Under the pieces are notes generated by a model. That model saw only the letters and a program-made list of their open reading frames with translations, had not been told where the DNA came from and did not search any database. Shown piece after piece: positions 5,397 through 64,000 of a DNA stretch of 64,000 nucleotides. Every line of letters begins with the position of its first letter. Position 1 is the first letter of the stretch. Source of the DNA: an uncultured SAR116 cluster alpha proteobacterium (lineage in GTDB: Bacteria; Pseudomonadota; Alphaproteobacteria; Puniceispirillales; Puniceispirillaceae); contig CACCQD010000002.1 in assembly GCA_902547925.1 (NCBI GenBank), positions 1 to 64,000 of the forward strand, written 5' to 3'. Position numbers and translations under genes: made by a program.

Positions 5397-6716
5397 TCAG
5401 CGCAGACGTGCCTGTAATACTGCCATGAAAAACCCATCCGTACCGTCACGTCCGGGAAGCAGCCGCAGCATCCCGTTATCCAACGGCGGACATGTACCGC
5501 CTTTTTGCGCCCCAATCGTGTCCTGCCAGATCGCACCAATATCAGCCAGCTCCAACTCCGGCGCCACCGACAGTAGCCGGTCAACCTGTGCTGTGCCCTC
5601 GCTTGCCAGAACGGAACAGGTTATATAAATAATCCGGCCACCGGGCATAACCATGGCACGTCCCTTGTCGAGCAATTGTGCCTGCAGACTGGTGTAGTGG
5701 GTAAGATCGTGAGTGCTGCACCGCCATCTTGCATCAACCTGCCGCCTCCACGTGCCAGAGCCTGAACAGGGCGCATCAATAACCACGCGGTTAAACTTGC
5801 CACGCCAGCGTTTGGTACCCCAACTGTCACCAACATGTTTTCGTTCAATGTTGTGAATGCCAGCACGGCGCATCCGCTCGCCGCCGCGTTCCAGCCGCTC
5901 AGCATCAGAGTCCAGCGCCAGAACGCGCCCCTTATTCCGCATCTGCGCCGCCATCACTAGGGCTTTGCCACCAGCGCCAGCGCACATGTCAACAACCTGC
6001 ATGCCCGGCCGTGCATCACACAACAAAGCCGCAATTTGTGATCCCTCATCCTGATACTCAAACAGCCCCCTCTTCCATTCTGGCAAATCCTTGGTACGGA
6101 TGCGCTTTTCCAACCGAATGCCAATTGGCGAGAGCGTGCTGAGATGGCATTTTAGGCCACGTCTGGCAAATTTTTCCCGCAGCAGGCGCCTGTCGCCAAG
6201 CTTGACCCGGTTGATCCGCACATCAGTTGCCGCCTCACCCTGCAACGCCACTAATTCGGCCTCGGTCGCCTCACCCAATGCGTCAACCGCATCTGCCAAT
6301 AGAAAATCTGGCCATTCAAGCGCCACATCGCGTGGCATCGCAGGATCATTCAATTGTCGCTCCGCCAATTTCGCGACAAGCTCACGCTCCTCCTCATTCA
6401 GTGCTGCCGCATTATGTCTGCTTTCACCGCCGAATAGCGCCATGATATCATCAGGCTTTTGCTGGTCGACTAGAATCTGCGCGGCAATTGTAATGCTTCG
6501 AGCGGTGACCTCGTGCCCGCATTGTTCCAAATGCCAAAACAAACGCGCCCAGGCCCGATGCACTCGCCAAAAGATGGCAGAAATTGCCTGCCGGTCACCA
6601 GAGCCTGCATAACGCCGCCGCTGCAACCCCCTGCGTAGCTCATAGCCAGCAAGATAGGTTTCCTCCATCCCGTCAATAATTTCGATGACAGCTGCGAGCC
6701 GTGCGGCTGGCGTCAT
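5397..6716 (-). CDS. RsmB/NOP2/Sun-family RNA (cytosine-5) methyltransferase
   Basis: 439 aa; 'VVDMCAGAGGKALVMAAQM', 'VVIDAPCSGSGTWRR', 'IIYITCSVLASEG'; lies between guaB and guaA. Confidence 0.9.
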   Translation of the reverse strand: MTPAARLAAVIEIIDGMEETYLAGYELRRGLQRRRYAGSGDRQAISAIFWRVHRAWARLFWHLEQCGHEVTARSITIAAQILVDQQKPDDIMALFGGESRHNAAALNEEERELVAKLAERQLNDPAMPRDVALEWPDFLLADAVDALGEATEAELVALQGEAATDVRINRVKLGDRRLLREKFARRGLKCHLSTLSPIGIRLEKRIRTKDLPEWKRGLFEYQDEGSQIAALLCDARPGMQVVDMCAGAGGKALVMAAQMRNKGRVLALDSDAERLERGGERMRRAGIHNIERKHVGDSWGTKRWRGKFNRVVIDAPCSGSGTWRRQVDARWRCSTHDLTHYTSLQAQLLDKGRAMVMPGGRIIYITCSVLASEGTAQVDRLLSVAPELELADIGAIWQDTIGAQKGGTCPPLDNGMLRLLPGRDGTDGFFMAVLQARLR

Positions 6717-6819
6717 GAATTCTTCCTCTTGCTGGCACCGCCAGATGCGGCGGCACGAAGACTAAAATCAAAATGATCACCGGAAACTGATGACAGTCAA
6801 TCCACTTGTTATGGATCGC

Positions 6820-8343
<1,524 letters not shown>

Positions 8344-8375
8344 CTATATCCAAGCATGGCTTCGAATCATAGCCC

Positions 8376-9200
8376 CTAAATTGGAGAAAATCCGCTGCCA
8401 TCAGGTGCGCTTTGCGATCCGGTTTCATCATCGTCCGGCGCCGAATTTTCGGCGCTGTTGGTAAGACCGTCACCATGAAAGCCCGTTGCCAGTACATAGC
8501 TTTCAACCGACTCCTGCCGGCTTGCGGCAGGTTTTACATGGCGCACCGTGTTAAAGTTGCGCTGCATTACATCAAGCACGCAACGTTCAGCACCACCGCG
8601 AAAACATTTCGCCAGAAAGAACCCATCCCTGTTCAGAATCTCAAGCGCAAAGTCCAATGCCGCCTCAAGCAATGCTGTGGTTCTGAGGTGATCAGTAGGC
8701 CGGTGGCCGGTAGTGGCAGCCGCCATGTCACTGAGAACCCCGTCGGCAACACCGCCGACAGCATCGCGGACCCGGGCCAGCATGTTATTATCCATCATGT
8801 CACCGACAAAGATATCAGAGTCGACGATGATTTCGGTTTCCAGCAAATCAATTCCCACCAGACGGGCCGACCCCCGCCCCAAGTTGGTGCGCATCGATGC
8901 CACCTGCATCCAGCCGCCGGGCGCGCATCCAAGGTCGACAATGGCCATCCCCGGCCGGAACAGTTTATAGCGATCATCAATCTGTTCGAGCTTAAGTGCA
9001 GCGCGCGAGCGAAATCCCCGGGATTTGGCCTCGGCAACAAAAGGGTCATTCAATTGGCGGGTCAGCCAGCGTTGCGATGACACCTTACGGCCACGCATCT
9101 TTTTCGGTTGGCGCGTGAGACCAGCCTTGCCGCGATAACTGCGTCCCGATGGCCCCTTTTTGCCATCCGAACGGCCACCGCCCTTACCACTGCCTGTCAT
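8376..9200 (-). CDS. rlmE: 23S rRNA 2'-O-methyltransferase RlmE/FtsJ
   Basis: 274 aa; 'SRGFRSRAALKLEQIDDRYKLFRPGMAIVDLGCAPGGWMQVA', 'LSDMAAATTGHRPTDHLRT'. Confidence 0.92.
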   Translation of the reverse strand: MTGSGKGGGRSDGKKGPSGRSYRGKAGLTRQPKKMRGRKVSSQRWLTRQLNDPFVAEAKSRGFRSRAALKLEQIDDRYKLFRPGMAIVDLGCAPGGWMQVASMRTNLGRGSARLVGIDLLETEIIVDSDIFVGDMMDNNMLARVRDAVGGVADGVLSDMAAATTGHRPTDHLRTTALLEAALDFALEILNRDGFFLAKCFRGGAERCVLDVMQRNFNTVRHVKPAASRQESVESYVLATGFHGDGLTNSAENSAPDDDETGSQSAPDGSGFSPI

Positions 9201-9380
9201 CGCACTCGAAACCTTCCAGATGGGGTGCCGCGTGTGACGGCATATCTTTTGCTGACCAATTGCAGTAATAACAGGTTATTGGGTGAGACGGCAAAATACA
9301 TTGCTTTTAAAATTTCACATTTCCTCTCATATCACCTACACGCCCCAATCCCGCCGCAATCCCGAAGCCCGAAACCCAAA

Positions 9381-10802
9381 ATGACGACAGCACCAGAGAC
9401 CACCAGTGAAGAAGGCCAGAGACCTCCGCCAATGCGGGGGTGGGCCTATCATCATTGGCAGAACATCAGGCTGGCAATGCCAATTGTCATTGGCGCGCTG
9501 TCAGTGATCGGCATTACGACGGCGGACATCATCGCCATGGGTTGGATCGACAGCATCAATCTGGCGGCAGGCTCGCTTGGGCAGCGCTATTACCAGCCGG
9601 TTTATTTCTTTGCGCTTGGCATAACATTGCCAGTCGGTGCTCTGATCGCGCAGGCGCTGGGCGCACGGGATGACCGCCAGATCCGGCGTGCCCTGCGGCA
9701 GGGATTGTTGATCGGCGTTGCCATCGGCATTCTGTTTGCGCCGTTGGTGATTGCTGGCCCGAAAATTCTTGTCTGGCTGGGACAGGACCCAGAGCTGTCA
9801 AATATGACGACAGATTATCTGATCTGGTCGGCAGTCGGTTTGCCGTTCAATTTCATCTTTTTTGTGCTGCGCCAATACATCGTGGCGCATCAGCACCCAC
9901 TGCCCCAGGTCATCGCCACCCTGCTGGGACTTGCTTTCAACATCATCGGCAATTACGCGCTCATTCATGGCATAGGTCCGTTGCCGGCGATGGGGCTGGC
10001 TGGCATCGCTCTGGCCACCACCTTGACCTGGCTGCTGGTTAGCATCGGCCTGATGATCTATATCGCCACCACCGAGCCCTATAGATCATCAAAACCATTT
10101 CAGCGGCTCTGGGTCATGGATTGGCAGATCACCCGCAGGATCACGACATTGGGCTTTCCCATCGGCCTGACTATTGTTGCCGAAAGTGGCATGTTCATTG
10201 CCATTGGTCTGCTCATCGGCCTGTTTGGCACTGCGGGCCTCGCTGCAAGCGCAATTGCCAACCAGATTGCCGCTGTGGCTTTTATGGTGCCCATTGCACT
10301 GGGTCACGCCGGCACCATCCGTGTCGCCCATTATGCCGGCAGAAAGGACAGGCAGAATCTGGGACGGAGCGCGCATTCGGTGATGCTGGTTGGCATCCTC
10401 GTGACCTCAGTCACAATGGCGGTTCTGCTGATCTGGCCGGAGGCGCTTGTTGACATTTATCTCAATCCTGATGATCCCCTGCTCGACGAGGTTGTGGCGC
10501 TGGCCCTTCCAATGGTGTTGATCGCCGCCCTGTTTCAGATCCCCGATGGGTTGCAGTGCATCGCCAATTCGGTTTTACGGGGGCTGAATGACACCCGAAT
10601 CCCGGCCTTGCTCGCAATCAGCAGTTTCTGGCTTTTTGGCGTTGGCGGCGGAGCTTTGATGGGCTTTACCTTTGAATTTGGACCGGTCGGTGTTTGGGCC
10701 GGCTTGCTGATTGGCCTTGGCGCCTCGGCGCTGGCGCTGGCATGGCGGATGCAGCGCGGCCTTGACAGATTAAAGGCTGGGGGGCGCATCCTGTCTGGAT
10801 GA
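9381..10802 (+). CDS. MATE family efflux transporter
   Basis: In-frame start chosen at ATG 9381 (MTTAPETTSEEG...); the ORF-track start at 9108 overlaps rlmE. Twelve-TM-like pattern, 'LPVGALIAQALGARDDRQI', 'NSVLRGLNDTRIPALLAI'. Confidence 0.88.
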   Translation: MTTAPETTSEEGQRPPPMRGWAYHHWQNIRLAMPIVIGALSVIGITTADIIAMGWIDSINLAAGSLGQRYYQPVYFFALGITLPVGALIAQALGARDDRQIRRALRQGLLIGVAIGILFAPLVIAGPKILVWLGQDPELSNMTTDYLIWSAVGLPFNFIFFVLRQYIVAHQHPLPQVIATLLGLAFNIIGNYALIHGIGPLPAMGLAGIALATTLTWLLVSIGLMIYIATTEPYRSSKPFQRLWVMDWQITRRITTLGFPIGLTIVAESGMFIAIGLLIGLFGTAGLAASAIANQIAAVAFMVPIALGHAGTIRVAHYAGRKDRQNLGRSAHSVMLVGILVTSVTMAVLLIWPEALVDIYLNPDDPLLDEVVALALPMVLIAALFQIPDGLQCIANSVLRGLNDTRIPALLAISSFWLFGVGGGALMGFTFEFGPVGVWAGLLIGLGASALALAWRMQRGLDRLKAGGRILSG

Positions 10803-10842
10803 TCTGGTTTGTTTGAATGCTATGCTGCGCTATGATCGTGCC

Positions 10843-13839
10843 ATGACCCGCGATCCAACTCATACCGAAATTACCCAGCTATGCCCGGGTTTGCCCGTCA
10901 TCTCAGCTGATCAGCAACCGGTTTATGACGATCTTGTTTCCTGGGCAGACACCATTACGGGTGATGCTGACACCGGAAACCCAGCAGGCGCACTTGCCGC
11001 CATGCTGGTGCATTCGCACCATCTTCAGACGCTGGCGCGGCGGCACCAGGACGCCATTGTACCAATCCTGCGGGGACAAGGTGCCACAATCATCAGCACC
11101 GCCTGTGACGAATTGACGGCGGCAACGCCAATAATCAGAGATGATGCCGCCATGATGCGGGCTCTTCGCAGGCTTCGCCAACGCAGTGCGCTCGCCGTGG
11201 CTCTGTCTGACTTGGGTGCAGGCACAAGCGCAGGGACAAGTAAAGGCGCAAGTCATGGCGCAAGGAATGGCGCAAGTGCTGATATCGCCACACAGATGGA
11301 ATGGCTCAGCAACGCCGCGGAGACCGCAGTTCGCGCCGCAGTTCGTTACCTGTTTGATCAGGCGGTGCGGCGGGGCAAATGCCCTCCACAGGCTGAGACG
11401 ATGGAACAGTGCGGCTGGGTCATTCTGGCGCTTGGCAAATTGGGCGCATCGGAACTGAATTACTCCTCCGATATTGATTTGATCATTCTTCATGATCCCG
11501 ATAGCACGCCATTGTTTGCAGCCGATACAGCCCAACAATTCTATGTTGAACAGACCCGCGCGCTTGTGCGGCTGCTCTCTCAGAGTACGGGGGATGGCAT
11601 TGGCTGGCGGGTCGATCTGCGCCTACGACCAGACCCGGGCGCAACCGCCGTCAGCATTCAGATTGGCGCGGCACTCAGCTATTATGAGTCAATCGCCCGC
11701 ACCTGGGAGCGAGCGGCCTTCATCCGGGCCAGACCGATCGCGGGCGATCTCGCACTTGGTGCCAGCTTACTTGGCGACATTCAGCCTTTCATCTGGCGGC
11801 GAACGCTGGATTACGCGGTAATGGACGATATGAAGTCGATGTTGCGCCGGCCAGTGCAAACATCCGGCTGGCAAGGCTATAACCTGAAAACCGGTAAGAA
11901 TGGCATTCGCCAGATCGAGTTTTTTACCCATGTCCTGCAATTGGTTGCGGGCGGCCGCATTCCCGCCATCCGCCAGCCCCGCACCCTGCCAGCCCTTCAG
12001 GCGCTGGCTGATGAAAAGTGGATCAGCCAGGATCAGGCGCGCAATCTGGCAGTCCTCTATCACGCCATTCGCCGCGTCGAACACCGGTTGCAGATGCTCA
12101 GCGATGCACAGACGCATTCATTGCCGCGCAGCGAAGCCGAGCTCACGCAATTCGTCCAGTTCCTCGGCCATGACAGCAATGACAGCTTCCTTGCCGCGCT
12201 TGCAAATGTGATGCAGGCGATCAGTGCAAACACCACACACAAACTTCTAGAGGATGCCGACCAGACTGCGATCTCCGTCAAGGCAGACGGTGACAGCCTG
12301 CTGCTCGATGACACCGAACAGCTTATCCAATGGCTTGTTGCACATGGATTCCAACGTCCGGGTGATGTCTGTGCCACCCTTGACGGTTGGATGGCAGGCC
12401 GGATCGCCACCACGCGGGGGGAGCGGGCGCGTTCGCTGCTGAACAGGCTGATGCCAACCATTCTTGCCCACTTGGCAGGCGGCAGCTCACCAGACGATCA
12501 ATTCGCAGCTTTCGCTCAATTCACCGAGGCGCTGCCAGCAAGTGTTCAGATTTTCTCGTTGCTCAACCATAACCGGCAGTTGACGAAATTGCTGTGTGAC
12601 GTTCTGGTTCTCTCACCGCGGATGGCGTCCTATCTGCGCCGCACCCCAGCCCTGTTTGACCTTGTCCTGTTTGACGATTTCTTCAACCCACTCCCCAGCG
12701 GCGATGTTCTGGAAGGGCAGATGCGGACCGCAATCGCCAACCTGTCGGTTGAGGAGGCGCTTGACGCGATAAAGCGGCGCGCACGGGAATGGCGTTTCCA
12801 ATGCGAGGTTCAGGCGCTCAGCCATGTTCTGCACCCAGCCGATCTTGGCCGCGCGCTGAGCATGATCGCCGATATTGTCGTTCGCGCCGTGCATCAATTG
12901 GCCGTTGAGGACATGCAGCGCCGGCATGGCAGCATTGACGGCGAAAGCACCATTCTTGCGCTTGGTCGACTTGGCATCCGGGCCTTGACGGCTCATTCCG
13001 ATCTGGATCTGGTTGTCGTTTTTCAGGCCGATGCAACCACTCAGTCAAATGGTGATCGCGCCGTGGGCGCCACGGCCTATTTTGCCCGTCTGACGCAGAC
13101 CTTTGTCAATTGGTTGAGCAGACCAACCGCTGAGGGCAGCCTTTATGAGGTGGATATGCGGCTGCGACCCGACGGCGAAAAGGGAACCGTCGCCGTCAGC
13201 ATTGACCGTTTCACCAATTACTATGAGAAGGACGCATGGGTCTGGGAAAAGCTGGCGCTTGCCAAGGCGCGGATCATCACCGATCCGACGCGCGCATCAT
13301 CAGCGGTGACAGCACTCACAAAAGCCATTCACAGATCGACGCAGCAACCAATCGGCCTGCCGACAGTCGGCAAGGCCGTTATTGATATGCGGCGGCGGTT
13401 GCGTGATGCCTATGGGAGCGCGCCGGCACTGCAACTGCGCAGGTTTCCGGGAGGAACGGCAGAGCTCGATCTTCTAATACAGGGGCTGCGGCTTGTCCAT
13501 GCTGACCTTTTTACAGGCACAGGTCAGAGCCAAATCGACATCATTTCAAAATTGGCAAGCGCAAAGCGCATCAGCCAGACCCATGCTGCCGATCTGGAGG
13601 GCGCAAGCAAGCTGTTCAACAATGTTTATACCAGCTTGCGCCTCTGCGTTGGGGCAGTTGGGCAGAACGCCGGGGATTTTTCCACTGCTGTCGTCCAGTT
13701 CATTGTCGAGAACAATGACGCCGCCGACGAGCCGCAGCTGATCGCTATGCTGGACGGCGAACGTGAAAAAATCATGGCTGTTTTTGATGCAATTTATCCA
13801 CCGCAGCACACCTCCAACGGGCCATCGACCGACCAGTGA
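10843..13839 (+). CDS. glnE: Bifunctional glutamine synthetase adenylyltransferase/adenylyl-removing enzyme
   Basis: About 998 aa; two nucleotidyltransferase modules: 'LGKLGASELNYSSDIDLIILHDPD' and 'LGRLGIRALTAHSDLDLVVVFQAD'. Confidence 0.95.
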   Translation: MTRDPTHTEITQLCPGLPVISADQQPVYDDLVSWADTITGDADTGNPAGALAAMLVHSHHLQTLARRHQDAIVPILRGQGATIISTACDELTAATPIIRDDAAMMRALRRLRQRSALAVALSDLGAGTSAGTSKGASHGARNGASADIATQMEWLSNAAETAVRAAVRYLFDQAVRRGKCPPQAETMEQCGWVILALGKLGASELNYSSDIDLIILHDPDSTPLFAADTAQQFYVEQTRALVRLLSQSTGDGIGWRVDLRLRPDPGATAVSIQIGAALSYYESIARTWERAAFIRARPIAGDLALGASLLGDIQPFIWRRTLDYAVMDDMKSMLRRPVQTSGWQGYNLKTGKNGIRQIEFFTHVLQLVAGGRIPAIRQPRTLPALQALADEKWISQDQARNLAVLYHAIRRVEHRLQMLSDAQTHSLPRSEAELTQFVQFLGHDSNDSFLAALANVMQAISANTTHKLLEDADQTAISVKADGDSLLLDDTEQLIQWLVAHGFQRPGDVCATLDGWMAGRIATTRGERARSLLNRLMPTILAHLAGGSSPDDQFAAFAQFTEALPASVQIFSLLNHNRQLTKLLCDVLVLSPRMASYLRRTPALFDLVLFDDFFNPLPSGDVLEGQMRTAIANLSVEEALDAIKRRAREWRFQCEVQALSHVLHPADLGRALSMIADIVVRAVHQLAVEDMQRRHGSIDGESTILALGRLGIRALTAHSDLDLVVVFQADATTQSNGDRAVGATAYFARLTQTFVNWLSRPTAEGSLYEVDMRLRPDGEKGTVAVSIDRFTNYYEKDAWVWEKLALAKARIITDPTRASSAVTALTKAIHRSTQQPIGLPTVGKAVIDMRRRLRDAYGSAPALQLRRFPGGTAELDLLIQGLRLVHADLFTGTGQSQIDIISKLASAKRISQTHAADLEGASKLFNNVYTSLRLCVGAVGQNAGDFSTAVVQFIVENNDAADEPQLIAMLDGEREKIMAVFDAIYPPQHTSNGPSTDQ
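11221..11280 (+). repeat. Five in-frame 12-bp tandem repeats within glnE
   Basis: GGCACAAGCGCA / GGGACAAGTAAA / GGCGCAAGTCAT / GGCGCAAGGAAT / GGCGCAAGTGCT, encoding GTSA GTSK GASH GARN GASA. Confidence 0.85.
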
Positions 13840-58582: not shown

Positions 58583-58862
58583 GCCCCAGGATATCATCAG
58601 TCGACAAGCCATGACCATTCATCTTGACGCTGCGGTGCGGTTTTGGCGATTTAGCAGCAGACATTCGCAGACAATGCGCAGAGATTGAGCAGAAATCACG
58701 CCTGCGATTTGCGCCTAGATGCCACGGGCGGATATAGGTGATGTCTCAGGCGTATGGGGCGGGGGTTTTCAGAAGAAAAATGGTGCGGCCGATATAATTA
58801 GCTAACAAACATTTAGGAAATGAAAACAAAGAGATTAGCACCAATCAACATCTGCTTTTGCG

Positions 58863-60122
58863 CTATGGTTTGGGCCGTCTATTACAATTCACACAAGCTG
58901 ATTTTGTATTTTCAAGAATGGTTTTGCCGCCACTTTCCCAACGGTGAACATGGTCAGCATCCATCCCATCAAGCTTGATGGATTTACCACATGACTCACA
59001 TTTTTGGTTTGCCTTTATCCTGATTGTATGGCGTTCGGCTTCGCTAAAAAGTCTCTTTTTGTCTTTGATCACAACCGAAGAGTTCGACAAAAGAAAACGC
59101 CTCAATAATTGATCAACCCTCCAGGACATGCTGTTAAGGTCATTAGTGCCTTGCTGCGCAAGTCGTCCATACTCAATCAGATTTGGGTCCCGATCATCTT
59201 CTTCCTTTAGCAGGTTCTGCTCCCTCTCCAACTTAAAGGCATCAAGGAAATCGCGTGTAATTTTAGGAAGGTGCGGATGAGAATAATCAGCGAATACTTT
59301 CTTGCAAAAAAAAGTAATAAAGCTGGGTGTAAGGTTGTTTACCTAAGTGCGGATCATTATTTCGAAAAAGCCTGTGTAATATGCCTATCCCACCGTTGAC
59401 ATTATTAACCAATTTCCTTTTTTCATTCTACTTCATTATGTGATTTTGAAGGACCATTTCATCAAGGTGCTTCTTCTTCAAATCACAATATTCGCCGCCA
59501 CCTACAATTAAATTTTGTTCAATTTTCAGAAACTTTGCGGCCACCTCTTCATGTGAATAGCGCCTTAATTTGAATCCCAACTTAGTATGAAAAAATTTCT
59601 CTTTTGCAATTTCTATTATGGTATCGCACATATCGCCACCCAACGCCCTTCGTTGCTCGGCAGCATTGAGCGAATCACCAGCATTGAGACGTAAAAACAA
59701 CTCTTCAATGTCTTCTTGATCCGCTTTGGTTACTAACAACAGGTCAGCTGCGTATTCCCCAAAGACCTCCTTTGCCTCATCAGCAAGGTCTACATATCGG
59801 TCGCCAAGCTTCGGTGGTGTCCACATGTCACCTGAATATTGAAAATCGCTAGACAGTTCAAAATGTCCAGCTCGAAAATCCCAGATTGCAGACAACCTTT
59901 GTTTACCGTCGATCACGTTAAATGAGAAAGGATCTTCTTTATCGCTGATGTCCTGAATATAAAATTTTGGTAAATCAAAGTTATTGAATATCGAGTCGAT
60001 TAATTTCGACTTTTTACTGTTTGACCAAATGCCAGCTTCTCGCTGATATGGGGGGTTCAAATCGTAAAGATTTTTTCACGCCAAAGTTTGCTTATCTGAA
60101 TTTGCTGCGTTGAACATCTCAT
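58863..60122 (-). pseudogene. Decayed DUF262-HNH (GmrSD-like) restriction-type protein
   Basis: DUF262 core YDLNPPYQREAGIWSNSKKSKLIDSIFNNFDLPKFYIQDI...NVIDGKQRLSAIWDF and HNH part CESCGKSIKLDGMDADHVHRWESGGKTILENTKSACVNCNRRPKP, separated by TAG (59428-59430) and a +1 frame change within 59287-59342; N-terminus (MRCSTQQIQISKLWREK) also out of frame near an A6 run. Confidence 0.75.
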
Positions 60123-60219
60123 ACCCAACCTCAAAAAAACTATCCGAGCAACATCCCTCGACGACAACCTTACACAAACGTTTGTGCAGAAGCCAACAAA
60201 CAAAAATCTACAAAAGGAT

Positions 60220-60265
60220 TTGCGCTGAAACACAGCGCAATTTGCGTCGTACAGCGCAATTTGCG
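60220..60265. promoter_or_regulatory. Inverted plus direct repeat cluster upstream of the DUF262 gene
   Basis: TTGCGCTG-aaaca-CAGCGCAA hairpin (60220-60240) plus a 19-bp-spaced direct repeat CAGCGCAATTTGCG (60233-60246 and 60252-60265). Confidence 0.6.
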
Positions 60266-60616
60266 GTGTAGGGTGTCCAACACTGTCCAAGACAGTCCGC
60301 TCAAAATCGAGGCGCAGAAACCTATTTGTTGTAGGATATAGGTTGCAACAAACAGGATTCTGGTGTGGCCGAGAGACACGTAAATGCCTTATCTATGCAC
60401 CATCACTGACCTGGACATCAGCAATACGCGCATATTATGCGTCACTGACTCACTGTCAATAGGCACGTAATCTTTCACAGTTTCTTTCACAGTGAATAGA
60501 AATCTTCGGGTAGTGGAATAGACCTGCATATCCTTATCGTTATCAGTACAGAGTAAGTGGCTAGCTAGACTGTATTAGCAATCTCCATAAGACACGTAAC
60601 TATCATCACTTACCTG

Positions 60617-60660
60617 ACCACATGCATGGGCCAGTTGGGGTGTGTCGGTAATATATTGTT
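60617..60660 (+). repeat. Left copy of an imperfect inverted repeat
   Basis: ATGCATGGGCCAGT (60622-60635) ... TATATTGTT (60652-60660); reverse complement near 63956-63990. Confidence 0.65.
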
Positions 60661-60722
60661 GGGTCATGCAATGGATGGGGTCGTTTCTTTCATGCAACCT
60701 CAAAGCAAACTTACCAAGATCT

Positions 60723-61049
60723 TTAGCTAAAATCATATTGTACAATTCCACGATAAGGCACGATTTTAGTTATAAAATCAAAATTGCTTGAGGAGGCTTT
60801 CAGAAACTCTTGCCATATCTTATCGCATGCCACAAATGCTTCCTGATTTTCATACTCTAGCCAATTTCCGATAGTAAATTTATCGCCTTTATTAAAAACC
60901 CTAGAGATATAAAACTTCGTCATACCATTTGCTCTGAGATTGGCGGCATGTTGTTCCATGTTGCTTTCAACAAAAGAGAAAAAACCATTCATGTCTGCCT
61001 CTGACATGAAATCCATTAAGGTGTAGCTAGTAATAACGGCTTTTGACAA
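60723..61049 (-). CDS. Small hypothetical protein
   Basis: 108 aa intact ORF MSKAVITSYTLMDFMSEADMNGFFSFVESNMEQHAANLRANGMTKFYISRVF... Confidence 0.6.
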   Translation of the reverse strand: MSKAVITSYTLMDFMSEADMNGFFSFVESNMEQHAANLRANGMTKFYISRVFNKGDKFTIGNWLEYENQEAFVACDKIWQEFLKASSSNFDFITKIVPYRGIVQYDFS

Positions 61050-61352
61050 ACCAAGGCCTCCTCAATAAAAGTGGATGGAACAAACTTTATAACCGACTGT
61101 TAAAGCTGGCATACTACCCGAGCGTTTGCATTACAAAAGTTGTTAACCAATTTCGTTACCCAAATACCCACATCCATGGGTTTCCACTATCACAGGAAAT
61201 AATGCATCACAGACATACCGTGTATGACCCCGCAAGGCTCAATGGCGGCCTCTGGCATTGTCTTAAATCAATGATACGTCTGACCACGCCAAAGAGTCTG
61301 TATAAGGCTTAAACGAGGCGTTTTTTTGGTTATTGGTCTTCAAGGAAATTAC

Positions 61353-61557
61353 CTATACCTTCGTACCGGTATCATTAGCGCACTTAAAATAAAACTGCTT
61401 GGCTTCTTCAGGCAATGTAGGATTAACGCCTTTAATCATTTCCTCTATCCGTGCCATACATTTTTCTCTGGTTAGATGTAGTCCACGAGTATCGGTGATA
61501 CTTTATACAGTCACCTTCTCTGGCCAATGAGCAAACCATCACGATTGCAAGAAACAT
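61353..61557 (-). pseudogene. Small exported Cys-containing protein, frameshifted paralog of 61656-61841
   Basis: MFLAIVMVCSLAREGDCIK then, +1 frame, SITDTRGLHLTREKCMARIEEMIKGVNPTLPEEAKQFYFKCANDTGTKV*. Not in the ORF track. Confidence 0.65.
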
Positions 61558-61655
61558 ATGCCTCTCCATTCTGTCGGCTTAAATCTCAATTCCAATTTTA
61601 TCATCACACTAGCCCGTGTGTGATCATGGATATTCAACTAAGTCTCAGTGGGTAA

Positions 61656-61841
61656 TTAACTTTCGCATTTGTAGGTGTATCCTTGGGGGGTATCGTGAAA
61701 TACCGATTGAAGTGATTCAGCCATCTCGTGTGCACTTGCAACACATTGTTCTCTTGTTTGATACGGACCACGAGTGTCAGAGAAAACAACGCATTCACTA
61801 TCCGACATCAACAAACATCCCATTACTAAGACTTCAAACAT
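61656..61841 (-). CDS. Small exported Cys-containing hypothetical protein
   Basis: MFEVLVMGCLLMSDSECVVFSDTRGPYQTREQCVASAHEMAESLQSVFHDTPQGYTYKCES. Confidence 0.6.
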   Translation of the reverse strand: MFEVLVMGCLLMSDSECVVFSDTRGPYQTREQCVASAHEMAESLQSVFHDTPQGYTYKCES

Positions 61842-61922
61842 CGGCTTTTCCTCCTAATCAGCGGAACATTATGCGTTGTAAATAGCGTTCATAGCATGGA
61901 TCATTAATGGTACGATTAAGGC

Positions 61923-63272
61923 ATGGAAGCACTGAACGAACTTACCCAATCCATCGCATCTGAAATCTCATCTCAGGAGAGCCGATCACGTAAACGTTCA
62001 GCAGATGCCCAACACAACTTTGAATATGCGATTGAAACGATTCTTAAAGACCTCTGGAAGGCTGGTGCGATTAGCACAGAGCATGAATGTGGAATACACA
62101 GGCGTTCTAATTGGTACTCCATCACACCACGCTATCGTGATCCCAACCTTACATTCAAACAAACGATGGCCGTCTTTGATGGCATGATTGCGTTGGGAAT
62201 GATTGAGGTCACAAGAAGCGGCTTCTTTGATCGTGATACCGGTGTTGGCGATATCACCAAATACAGAGCAAGAGATAGATTGCTGGAGATGCTGGAGGAT
62301 GTTAAAGGCAATCCATTTACAGATAACAAGCCTGACTTGAACGCTGAGTGTATCATCCTTCGTGATATTGTTGAGGGTGTGCGCACTGTCAAACGTTACG
62401 ATGATGATGCAACCACTAAAGAGATGCGTGAGAACCTCTGTACCATCAACACTTGCCTAGCCAAACATTGGCCTGATCTCAGGATTAAGGATGAGCATTA
62501 CACTGCTTTACAAGAAAGGCTGATGTTAGATGAAGACAAGCAGCCAATAGATTTTACCCAACGCATCCTCACTCGTATCTTCTCTAATGGACGATTTGAT
62601 CAAGGTGGCAGGTTTTACCGTGCTTGGTGGCACAATGTGCCAAGTGAGTACCGCAAGTTCATCACAATAGATGGCAAGCGCACATGTGAGTACGACTACT
62701 CCCAACTGAACCCCCATATGGCTTACTTTATGCGTGGCAGAGAACTGGGCAGCGAAGATGCCTTCAGCAGGGTGTTTGACGGAGAACACAGGTCACTTGT
62801 TAAAGAGGTCTTCAATGCCATGATGCAAGCCTCTACACCACTTCTAAGGAAGCCTGATTGTATTGATCTCAGCGAAGTGGAGTTTGACTGGACCACTCTT
62901 AGGCAAGCTGTATTAGATGCCCATACACCATTGTCTGATGTCTTCTTTCAAGGTCATGGCAATCATCTCCAGTTCATTGATAGCTGTATCGCTGAAAAGG
63001 TCATGTTGCAGTTTGTGAGGTCAGATGATGAGCCAGTGCTGCCAGTTCATGACAGTTTCATCATGCATTACGTATTTGGTGATATGGGTGAATTGGAGGA
63101 AGCCATGCGAAGGGCATTCCACGATCACTTCAAGAAGGATATCAAAGTCAGTGAGGATATCGGGGTAATGCTACCATCCTCATTTGACGATAGGGAGTTT
63201 GACGATTTATCTGTTGAAGAGATAGCCATCGGACCGCCTGAGTACAGTCAGTGGAATGAGAGGAATTTCTGA
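61923..63272 (+). CDS. Putative replication-type protein with family-A-polymerase-like palm motifs
   Basis: 449 aa; N-terminal '...NWYSITPRYRDPNLTFKQTMAVFDGMIALGMIEVTRSGFFDRDTGVGDITKYRARDRLLEML' (Rep/wHTH-like); motif-A-like 'EYDYSQLNPHMAYF' (D258), motif-B-like 'HRSLVKEVFNAMM' (K294), 'LQFIDSCIAEKVM' then motif-C-like 'LPVHDSFIM' (D377). Confidence 0.6.
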   Translation: MEALNELTQSIASEISSQESRSRKRSADAQHNFEYAIETILKDLWKAGAISTEHECGIHRRSNWYSITPRYRDPNLTFKQTMAVFDGMIALGMIEVTRSGFFDRDTGVGDITKYRARDRLLEMLEDVKGNPFTDNKPDLNAECIILRDIVEGVRTVKRYDDDATTKEMRENLCTINTCLAKHWPDLRIKDEHYTALQERLMLDEDKQPIDFTQRILTRIFSNGRFDQGGRFYRAWWHNVPSEYRKFITIDGKRTCEYDYSQLNPHMAYFMRGRELGSEDAFSRVFDGEHRSLVKEVFNAMMQASTPLLRKPDCIDLSEVEFDWTTLRQAVLDAHTPLSDVFFQGHGNHLQFIDSCIAEKVMLQFVRSDDEPVLPVHDSFIMHYVFGDMGELEEAMRRAFHDHFKKDIKVSEDIGVMLPSSFDDREFDDLSVEEIAIGPPEYSQWNERNF

Positions 63273-63446
63273 TTGCTAAAGATAGTTCTCTTATCAGCAC
63301 TCGCCGTTGGCATCACACTGCTTGTCATACGTAAAGTGCCAAGACTGCGTTTATATGCACAACGGCTATTGCAAAATCCAATAGTGAGGACAATCCTGTT
63401 CAGAGGATTATGGCGATTGGTGCAGTTATTGATATTTAGGAGATAA
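63273..63446 (+). CDS. Small membrane/basic protein (TTG start), translationally coupled candidate
   Basis: MLKIVLLSALAVGITLLVIRKVPRLRLYAQRLLQNPIVRTILFRGLWRLVQLLIFRR*; starts at the base after the upstream TGA; its 3' end contains the RBS-like 'AGGAG' of the next gene. Not in the ORF track. Confidence 0.5.
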   Translation: MLKIVLLSALAVGITLLVIRKVPRLRLYAQRLLQNPIVRTILFRGLWRLVQLLIFRR

Positions 63447-63450
63447 GTAA

Positions 63451-63915
63451 ATGAGTTTGTATCGGGGCGGTTGTTCTTGTGGTGACTTAAGATACCACAT
63501 AAGCAAAGAACCCATATTCACTCAAGCTTGTCATTGCAGGCTATGCCAACGCCAAACAGCGTCTGCTTTTATTATTAGGACAATGATTGAGTCATCCCAT
63601 TTCCATGTTGATACGGGAGAATTAATTTGTGTGCACGGACCAACTGGTAGTGGAAGAGGCCAAAAGGTTTATCGGTGCGCTATCTGTAAAGTTCAAATCT
63701 TTAGTATTTTCAACAATAGCGATGTCATGACTTTTTTGAAGACGGCAACTTTTGATGAACCTGAACATTTTCCACCACAGGCGCATATTTTCACGAAGAG
63801 TAAACTCAGTTGGGTAAATTTGGATGGGGCTACTCCACGTTTTGAGAAATATTACAACAAAGAAGAACTGCTATCAAAAGACAGTCTTGCTAGAAGAAAA
63901 GCCATCGGCTGGTAA
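63451..63915 (+). CDS. GFA/CENP-V family protein
   Basis: 'GGCSCGDLRYHISKEPIFTQACHCRLCQRQTASAF...YRCAICKVQIFSIF'. Confidence 0.88.
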   Translation: MSLYRGGCSCGDLRYHISKEPIFTQACHCRLCQRQTASAFIIRTMIESSHFHVDTGELICVHGPTGSGRGQKVYRCAICKVQIFSIFNNSDVMTFLKTATFDEPEHFPPQAHIFTKSKLSWVNLDGATPRFEKYYNKEELLSKDSLARRKAIGW

Positions 63916-63955
63916 AACAGGAAAATCAGAGCCAACCCAATCTGTTGTAACACTT

Positions 63956-64000
63956 AACAATATACTACCCACACACACTGGCCCATGCATTGGTCAAAGT
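63956..64000 (-). repeat. Right copy of the imperfect inverted repeat (reaches window edge)
   Basis: AACAATATA (63956-63964) ... ACTGGCCCATGCAT (63977-63990), reverse complement of the 60622-60660 blocks. Confidence 0.65.

Follow-up and report, generated by a model that had tools for sequence, protein, structure and literature searches.

A compact TV-Pol-type family A polymerase of a tRNA-integrated mobile element, probably acting as an initiator or primase-polymerase

Our analysis of a 64,000-nucleotide stretch of SAR116-cluster DNA (hereafter the window) indicates that one of its genes probably encodes a compact TV-Pol-type polymerase of family A, which belongs to a tRNA-integrated mobile element and acts as an initiator or primase-polymerase. 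Alignments and structural models show a conserved polymerase active site, a minimal hand and a predicted DNA-binding-like head, and members of the family reside in elements with integrases. We infer that the enzyme initiates, by priming, the DNA synthesis of the excised element. The initial annotation had proposed a minimal replicase, a primase-like enzyme or a terminal transferase of a mobile element. The predicted palm fold, the invariant catalytic residues and the integrase elements favor the replicase or primase-like proposals, and no specific support was found for a terminal transferase. Three rival explanations were ranked, namely a gap-filling polymerase, then a single-subunit RNA polymerase, then a dead palm.

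61923..63272, plus strand: TV-Pol-type family A polymerase gene, 449 aa, recognized by motifs, conservation, AlphaFold, Foldseek and phrog_4756 (E=7.4e-37)

The translated reading frame is stop-free, and the gene is present in one copy in its genome. The polymerase has a 91% ortholog, and the relatives of the source genome are SAR116-cluster alphaproteobacteria. Comparison with the closest ortholog gave pS 0.326, pN 0.046 and a dN/dS of 0.11, and the protein is therefore under purifying selection. All motifs quoted in the initial annotation were found in the translation, with D258, K294 and D377 where it had placed them. Conservation was assessed in two alignments. The first holds 33 diverse homologs with a mean column identity of 17%, in which N176, G229, R230, R244, D258, K294 and D377 are invariant. 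The second (A6) holds 53 sequences, consisting of the 449-aa protein (P0001), one SAR116 ortholog and 51 viral-contig proteins; its invariant residues are G229, R230, R244, E256, D258, D279, R290, K294, H376, D377 and M395. D258, K294 and D377 are thus conserved above chance, being invariant in both sets. The collection scan was seeded with closer subsets, as the full 33-sequence alignment was too diverged for a seed.

The PHROGs family to which the protein belongs, phrog_4756, is matched by all 53 A6 members and is listed as having an unknown function. Sequence searches of Pfam, NCBIfam, PADLOC and PDB with the 449-aa protein gave no match, and this includes the Pfam DNA_pol_A family (PF00476). 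The host genome has its own Pol I besides this enzyme. The domains of the protein, all on the plus strand, are as follows.

62001..62270, plus strand: winged-helix-like N-terminal domain, residues 27-116 (helices then two wing strands in two models; weak Foldseek matches)
62409..62528, plus strand: minimal two-helix thumb, residues 163-202, N176 invariant or near-invariant (alignment, model)
62571..62618, plus strand: beta-hairpin corresponding to Pol I TGRLSS, with the sequence GGRFYxxWW and invariant Arg230 (alignments, model, profile alignment)
62676..62699, plus strand: palm strand with motif A, invariant Asp258 (model strand 252-259)
62757..62828, plus strand: short fingers with Asp279 and helix 290-302 carrying R290xxxK294 (alignments, model)
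63039..63068, plus strand: palm hairpin with motif C, His376-Asp377 (alignments, model)

An AlphaFold model seeded with the 53-sequence alignment (pLDDT 85.3, pTM 0.83) begins with helices and a two-strand wing, followed by two antiparallel helices and a beta-hairpin bearing R230. After these come the D258 strand, a short insert that forms the fingers and contains the R290xxxK294 helix, then a long helix, the H376-D377 hairpin, and a helix and strand. The thumb helices span residues 163-181 and 195-202, with a low-confidence loop between them, and the hairpin strands span 217-220 and 228-232. R230 is found in 33/33 and 53/53 sequences, and D279 and R290xxxK294 in 53/53 A6 sequences. The polymerase core covers residues ~163-413; a palm of ~200 aa and the absence of an exonuclease, both proposed at the outset, hold. 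Little space had been expected for thumb and fingers. Both are indeed minimal, but both do exist in the model.

The proposed family A palm is borne out by the model, which has an RRM palm, and by a Foldseek comparison with the PDB, where the best 50 matches were all family A DNA polymerases (T7 DNA polymerase, Pol I and apicoplast polymerase; best E=1.6e-4). An unrelated fold, or poor conservation of the key residues, would have spoken against the proposal; a palm was modelled, and D258, K294 and D377 do not vary. TM-scores were low, about 0.3 of the query, as expected because only the palm, the fingers and part of the thumb are common to the family A matches. A profile alignment against Pol I from the source genome and from related genomes (E=3.5e-4) placed GGRFY..WW..VP in register with TGRLSS..NLQNIP, and motifs A and C in register with their Pol I counterparts. 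Since its probability was only 37%, this alignment supports the relationship and does not prove it. Only the Foldseek comparison, made with a predicted structure, and this modest profile match link the 449-aa protein to known polymerases.

These comparisons also bear on the possibility that the protein is a single-subunit RNA polymerase, transcribing genes of the element or phage from a promoter to which its winged-helix head binds. The motif order is common to T7-like enzymes, the Glu steric gate is absent, and residues 350-405 match the RNA polymerase family phrog_414 at E=0.061, a weak value that is not significant. T7 RNAP was absent from the best 50 PDB matches listed, however, and the protein has no room for the promoter-binding N-terminal domain and specificity loop of T7. 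We therefore consider an RNA polymerase quite improbable.

The N-terminus had been described as a Rep-like winged helix. It is winged-helix-like in the models, including one of the N-terminus alone (pLDDT 82), but its Foldseek matches were mostly to general wHTH regulators (PadR/MarR/TFIIE-type) with weak E-values of 0.03-0.2. No plasmid Rep initiator was among the best 50 N-terminal matches listed, and the Rep-like part of the description is therefore unproven.

The active site differs from that of Pol I at two positions. At the position of the Pol I steric-gate Glu (Glu710 in Klenow), the alignment has His in 47/53 A6 sequences and Asn in the window's protein. The residue eight after the fingers Lys (K294), Tyr766 in Klenow, is Asn in 50/53. 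Positions that sense the sugar and the base pair in Pol I are thus replaced, which is compatible with ribonucleotide use. Because His or Asn stands at the steric gate in these sequences, the use of ribonucleotides in priming is plausible. Could the palm instead be catalytically dead and serve as a DNA-binding initiator or regulator? Inactive RRM-only Pol relatives adjoin SSBs in Bacillota elements (PMC10061031), but here both metal-binding Asp residues, RxxxK and the hairpin Arg are invariant across highly diverged sequences, which makes a dead palm highly improbable.

The polymerase gene lies within a 4,562-bp unit (contig 60361-64922) flanked by 260-bp inverted repeats of 96% identity. The features of this unit and its surroundings in the window are the following.

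60361..60620: left arm of the polymerase unit's 260-bp terminal inverted repeat (96%), whose right arm lies beyond the window at contig 64663-64922
60361..60372: att core TGGTGTGGCCGA at the end of the polymerase unit, matching the 3' end of tRNA-Leu(gag) at 69371
60241..60374: 134-bp segment repeated in direct orientation (90%) next to tRNA-Leu at contig 69251-69384, found by DNA search
60723..61049, minus strand: cargo gene for a DUF6974 protein (PF22388, 5e-7)
63451..63915, plus strand: cargo gene for a GFA-domain protein (PF04828, 1.2e-24)
58781..60360: tandem unit adjoining the polymerase unit on its left and carrying HNH and GmrSD_N genes

A core of 12-14 bp, identical to the tRNA-Leu(gag) 3' end, is found at 58781(+), 60361(+), 64911(-) and 66710(+), and in the tRNA itself at 69371. 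Contig 58781-69384 (window 58781-64000 plus L011) is a series of tandem att-bounded units at tRNA-Leu(gag), some with long inverted repeats; the inverted repeats showed no strong hairpin folding. The HNH and GmrSD_N genes (window 58863-60060) may be restriction or defence cargo. Unit 64911-66721 follows and carries a DUF6974 gene together with an integrase interrupted by a single premature stop; a relative has an intact copy of this integrase. The integrase unit recurs at about 97-98% beside the same tRNA-Leu(gag) in genomes G387 and G385; in G387, contigs break inside the element, so that the polymerase gene is not necessarily absent from that genome.

The mobile-element setting suggested at the outset was supported by a survey of homologs. 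A tyrosine or serine recombinase lies within 6 kb of the polymerase in 42/71 cellular loci. The 3' end of a tRNA recurs elsewhere in the locus in about two dozen polymerase loci, some of which are overlapping views of one place; with shuffled cores the chance of this was at most 0.05 per locus. Where direct tRNA-end repeats bracket a region, the polymerase and a tyrosine integrase are enclosed in 16/16 loci, giving elements of 6.7-13.9 kb; in one of the 16 (L265), the predicted integrase start overlaps the repeat. Other cargo of polymerase elements includes restriction-modification genes. In L060, a polymerase-bearing segment with a serine resolvase is tandemly duplicated (period about 8.95 kb, >99% identical). 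In seven loci (L010:4599-5375, L267, L268, L270, L276, L279 and L282), the polymerase has as its neighbour a ~245-aa protein that lacks a Pfam match; Cys/His residues are conserved in it, and an 'RHGS' motif strongly so.

RNase H is encoded beside the polymerase in 4/71 loci. Each of three such genomes checked has another RNase H elsewhere, and in the two loci with known element ends the polymerase-adjacent RNase H lies inside the element. Among 68 sampled operon neighbours, for which 25 of 41 Pfam families were listed, no helicase (D5 helicase included) or SSB was seen, a tally in which unannotated OB folds could be missed. The primase role of TV-Pols was earned from D5-helicase linkage (PMC2579912), and this argument is therefore weaker for the 449-aa enzyme.

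This neighbourhood also bears on the possibility of a primer-dependent repair polymerase that, instead of initiating replication, fills gaps and heals intermediates which the integrase forms during integration or recombination. The tyrosine integrase is the polymerase's constant companion, many elements have no helicase partner among the sampled neighbours, and the polymerase is accessory in phages, all of which would suit such a role. Tyrosine recombination, however, leaves no gaps that need filling, and the winged-helix-like head and element-encoded RNase H are better suited to initiation. A gap-filling role thus seems rather unlikely. For the preferred initiator or primase-polymerase, we envisage that the integrase would excise the element and that the winged-helix head would then dock the polymerase on element DNA. 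The palm would make a primer or short strand on the exposed template, and host enzymes would complete replication of the element. In some elements, the encoded RNase H would remove RNA stretches. In large phages that already have a replicative polymerase, the TV-Pol-type enzyme would be an accessory primase or initiator.

The layout tRNA, integrase, inverted core, polymerase recurs at tRNA-Thr (358-bp repeats, 99.4%) and at tRNA-Ser (705-bp repeats, 100%), the latter in another bacterial family. No description of this layout was found in the literature searched. As a control, loci lacking the polymerase but with a tRNA beside the same integrase class were inspected, and 9/12 also have the inverted core; the layout therefore belongs to the integrase class, and inverted att sites were rejected as a hallmark of polymerase elements. 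In SAR116-like genomes, this class of ~380-aa tyrosine integrase usually precedes an inverted copy of the tRNA 3' core, whether or not the polymerase is present (L353, L355, L356, L357, L360, L362, L369, L370 and L371), and the pair is possibly an invertible or cassette-like platform. Related inverted-repeat pieces in L224 (G386) 5602-13160 and G000:C20 occur in several copies and both orientations, resembling a cassette array.

In G387, the end that faces the chromosomal flank agrees, over ~150 bp past the repeat, with the integrase-proximal end of the unit in the window, a single and one-sided instance. Compared with G000, it looks as if the polymerase module had flipped, a difference in orientation that would suit the following scenario. 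The integrase could conceivably flip the inverted-repeat module, so that replication started by the TV-Pol and combined with recombinase-driven inversion would amplify the element; the excised circle would then resemble the yeast 2-micron plasmid, with its recombinase-driven inversion during replication. The inverted att at polymerase-free loci of the same integrase class counts against this amplification, and we regard it as doubtful.

Polymerase homologs were detected in 32/385 sampled alphaproteobacterial genomes (~8%) and in 25/398 genomes of the phylum. Within the family the distribution is patchy (19/61 genomes) and includes decayed copies. Homologs are carried by Thioclava, Paracoccus and Neorhizobium plasmids, and also by large gammaproteobacterial phages of Rheinheimera, Vibrio, Aeromonas and Pseudoalteromonas, ICP1 included, where they are annotated as hypothetical. 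In the well-studied cholera phage ICP1, the member is TUST1-191_00500 of Vibrio phage ICP1_2006_D (L062 11005-12675, "hypothetical protein"). One Barbavirus homolog in BFVD bears the name 'DNA polymerase', and Barba phages have a separate annotated DNA polymerase and primase beside the TV-Pol-type homolog. The commonness of the enzyme in Alphaproteobacteria and in large gammaproteobacterial phages is new. Although it occurs in ~8% of the sampled Alphaproteobacteria and in phages such as ICP1, the databases checked either call the family hypothetical or give it no name.

The enzyme shares the palm fold and motifs A, B and C with bacterial DNA polymerase I and T7 DNA polymerase, but its core is only ~250 aa, it has no exonuclease, and His or Asn replaces the steric-gate Glu. 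Its fingers are short, with 36 aa from D to K and 83 aa from K to D, compared with about 53 and about 124 in Klenow. The nearest assayed relative in kind is CcPol-MP of SCCmec, a proven primase that likewise has a family A catalytic domain on a mobile element, and PolA-type primases are known from SCCmec elements (PMC10061031). CcPol-MP and the PolA-SSB primases of SCCmec and other Bacillota elements have a fuller Pol I domain, exonuclease remnants and an operon with SSB and helicase (PMC10061031), whereas the 449-aa enzyme has no exonuclease, a smaller thumb and fingers, and no SSB or helicase among the sampled neighbours. Assays in the literature covered concern only these larger SCCmec relatives. 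A 449-aa protein with its own predicted DNA-binding head and no visible partner gene would offer a simple system in which to ask whether a family A enzyme can initiate de novo.

Four features define TV-Pols (Iyer, Abhiman and Aravind 2008, PMC2579912): the thumb consists of two helices, a hairpin carries an Arg that is absolutely conserved, the RRM palm has two Asp residues, and the fingers contain both an Asp and RxxxK. TV-Pols are stand-alone proteins of 400-600 aa from Alphaproteobacteria and other groups, with resolvase or integrase neighbours (PMC2579912). All four core features are found in the 449-aa protein, as judged from alignment and model, and we therefore file it as a TV-Pol, a member of a known, experimentally thin kind; stand-alone size, alphaproteobacterial hosts and mobile-element context (integrase or resolvase in 42/71 loci) are also shared. 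In Microcystis phage Ma-LMM01, a cited TV-Pol carrier, MAP_030 gives a weak alignment (6.3 bits; E 0.12 in a genome scan) that spans the hairpin and motif A, and the gene adjoins two transposase genes; it is presumably the TV-Pol meant by Iyer et al. The Zamilon virophage replication protein appeared in a viral fold search at E=4.7e-3. Several features of the present variant appear undescribed in the literature searched, namely the absence of helicase and SSB genes among the sampled neighbours, a head that is apparently winged-helix-like, the partnership with RNase H, and the layout with an inverted att. PMC2579912 makes no mention of an RNase H encoded by the element or of the att layout, and no D5 helicase was found fused to the enzyme or among its sampled neighbours. 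Finally, its N-terminus is predicted to be winged-helix-like, whereas an all-helical domain was predicted for one TV-Pol subset (PMC2579912).
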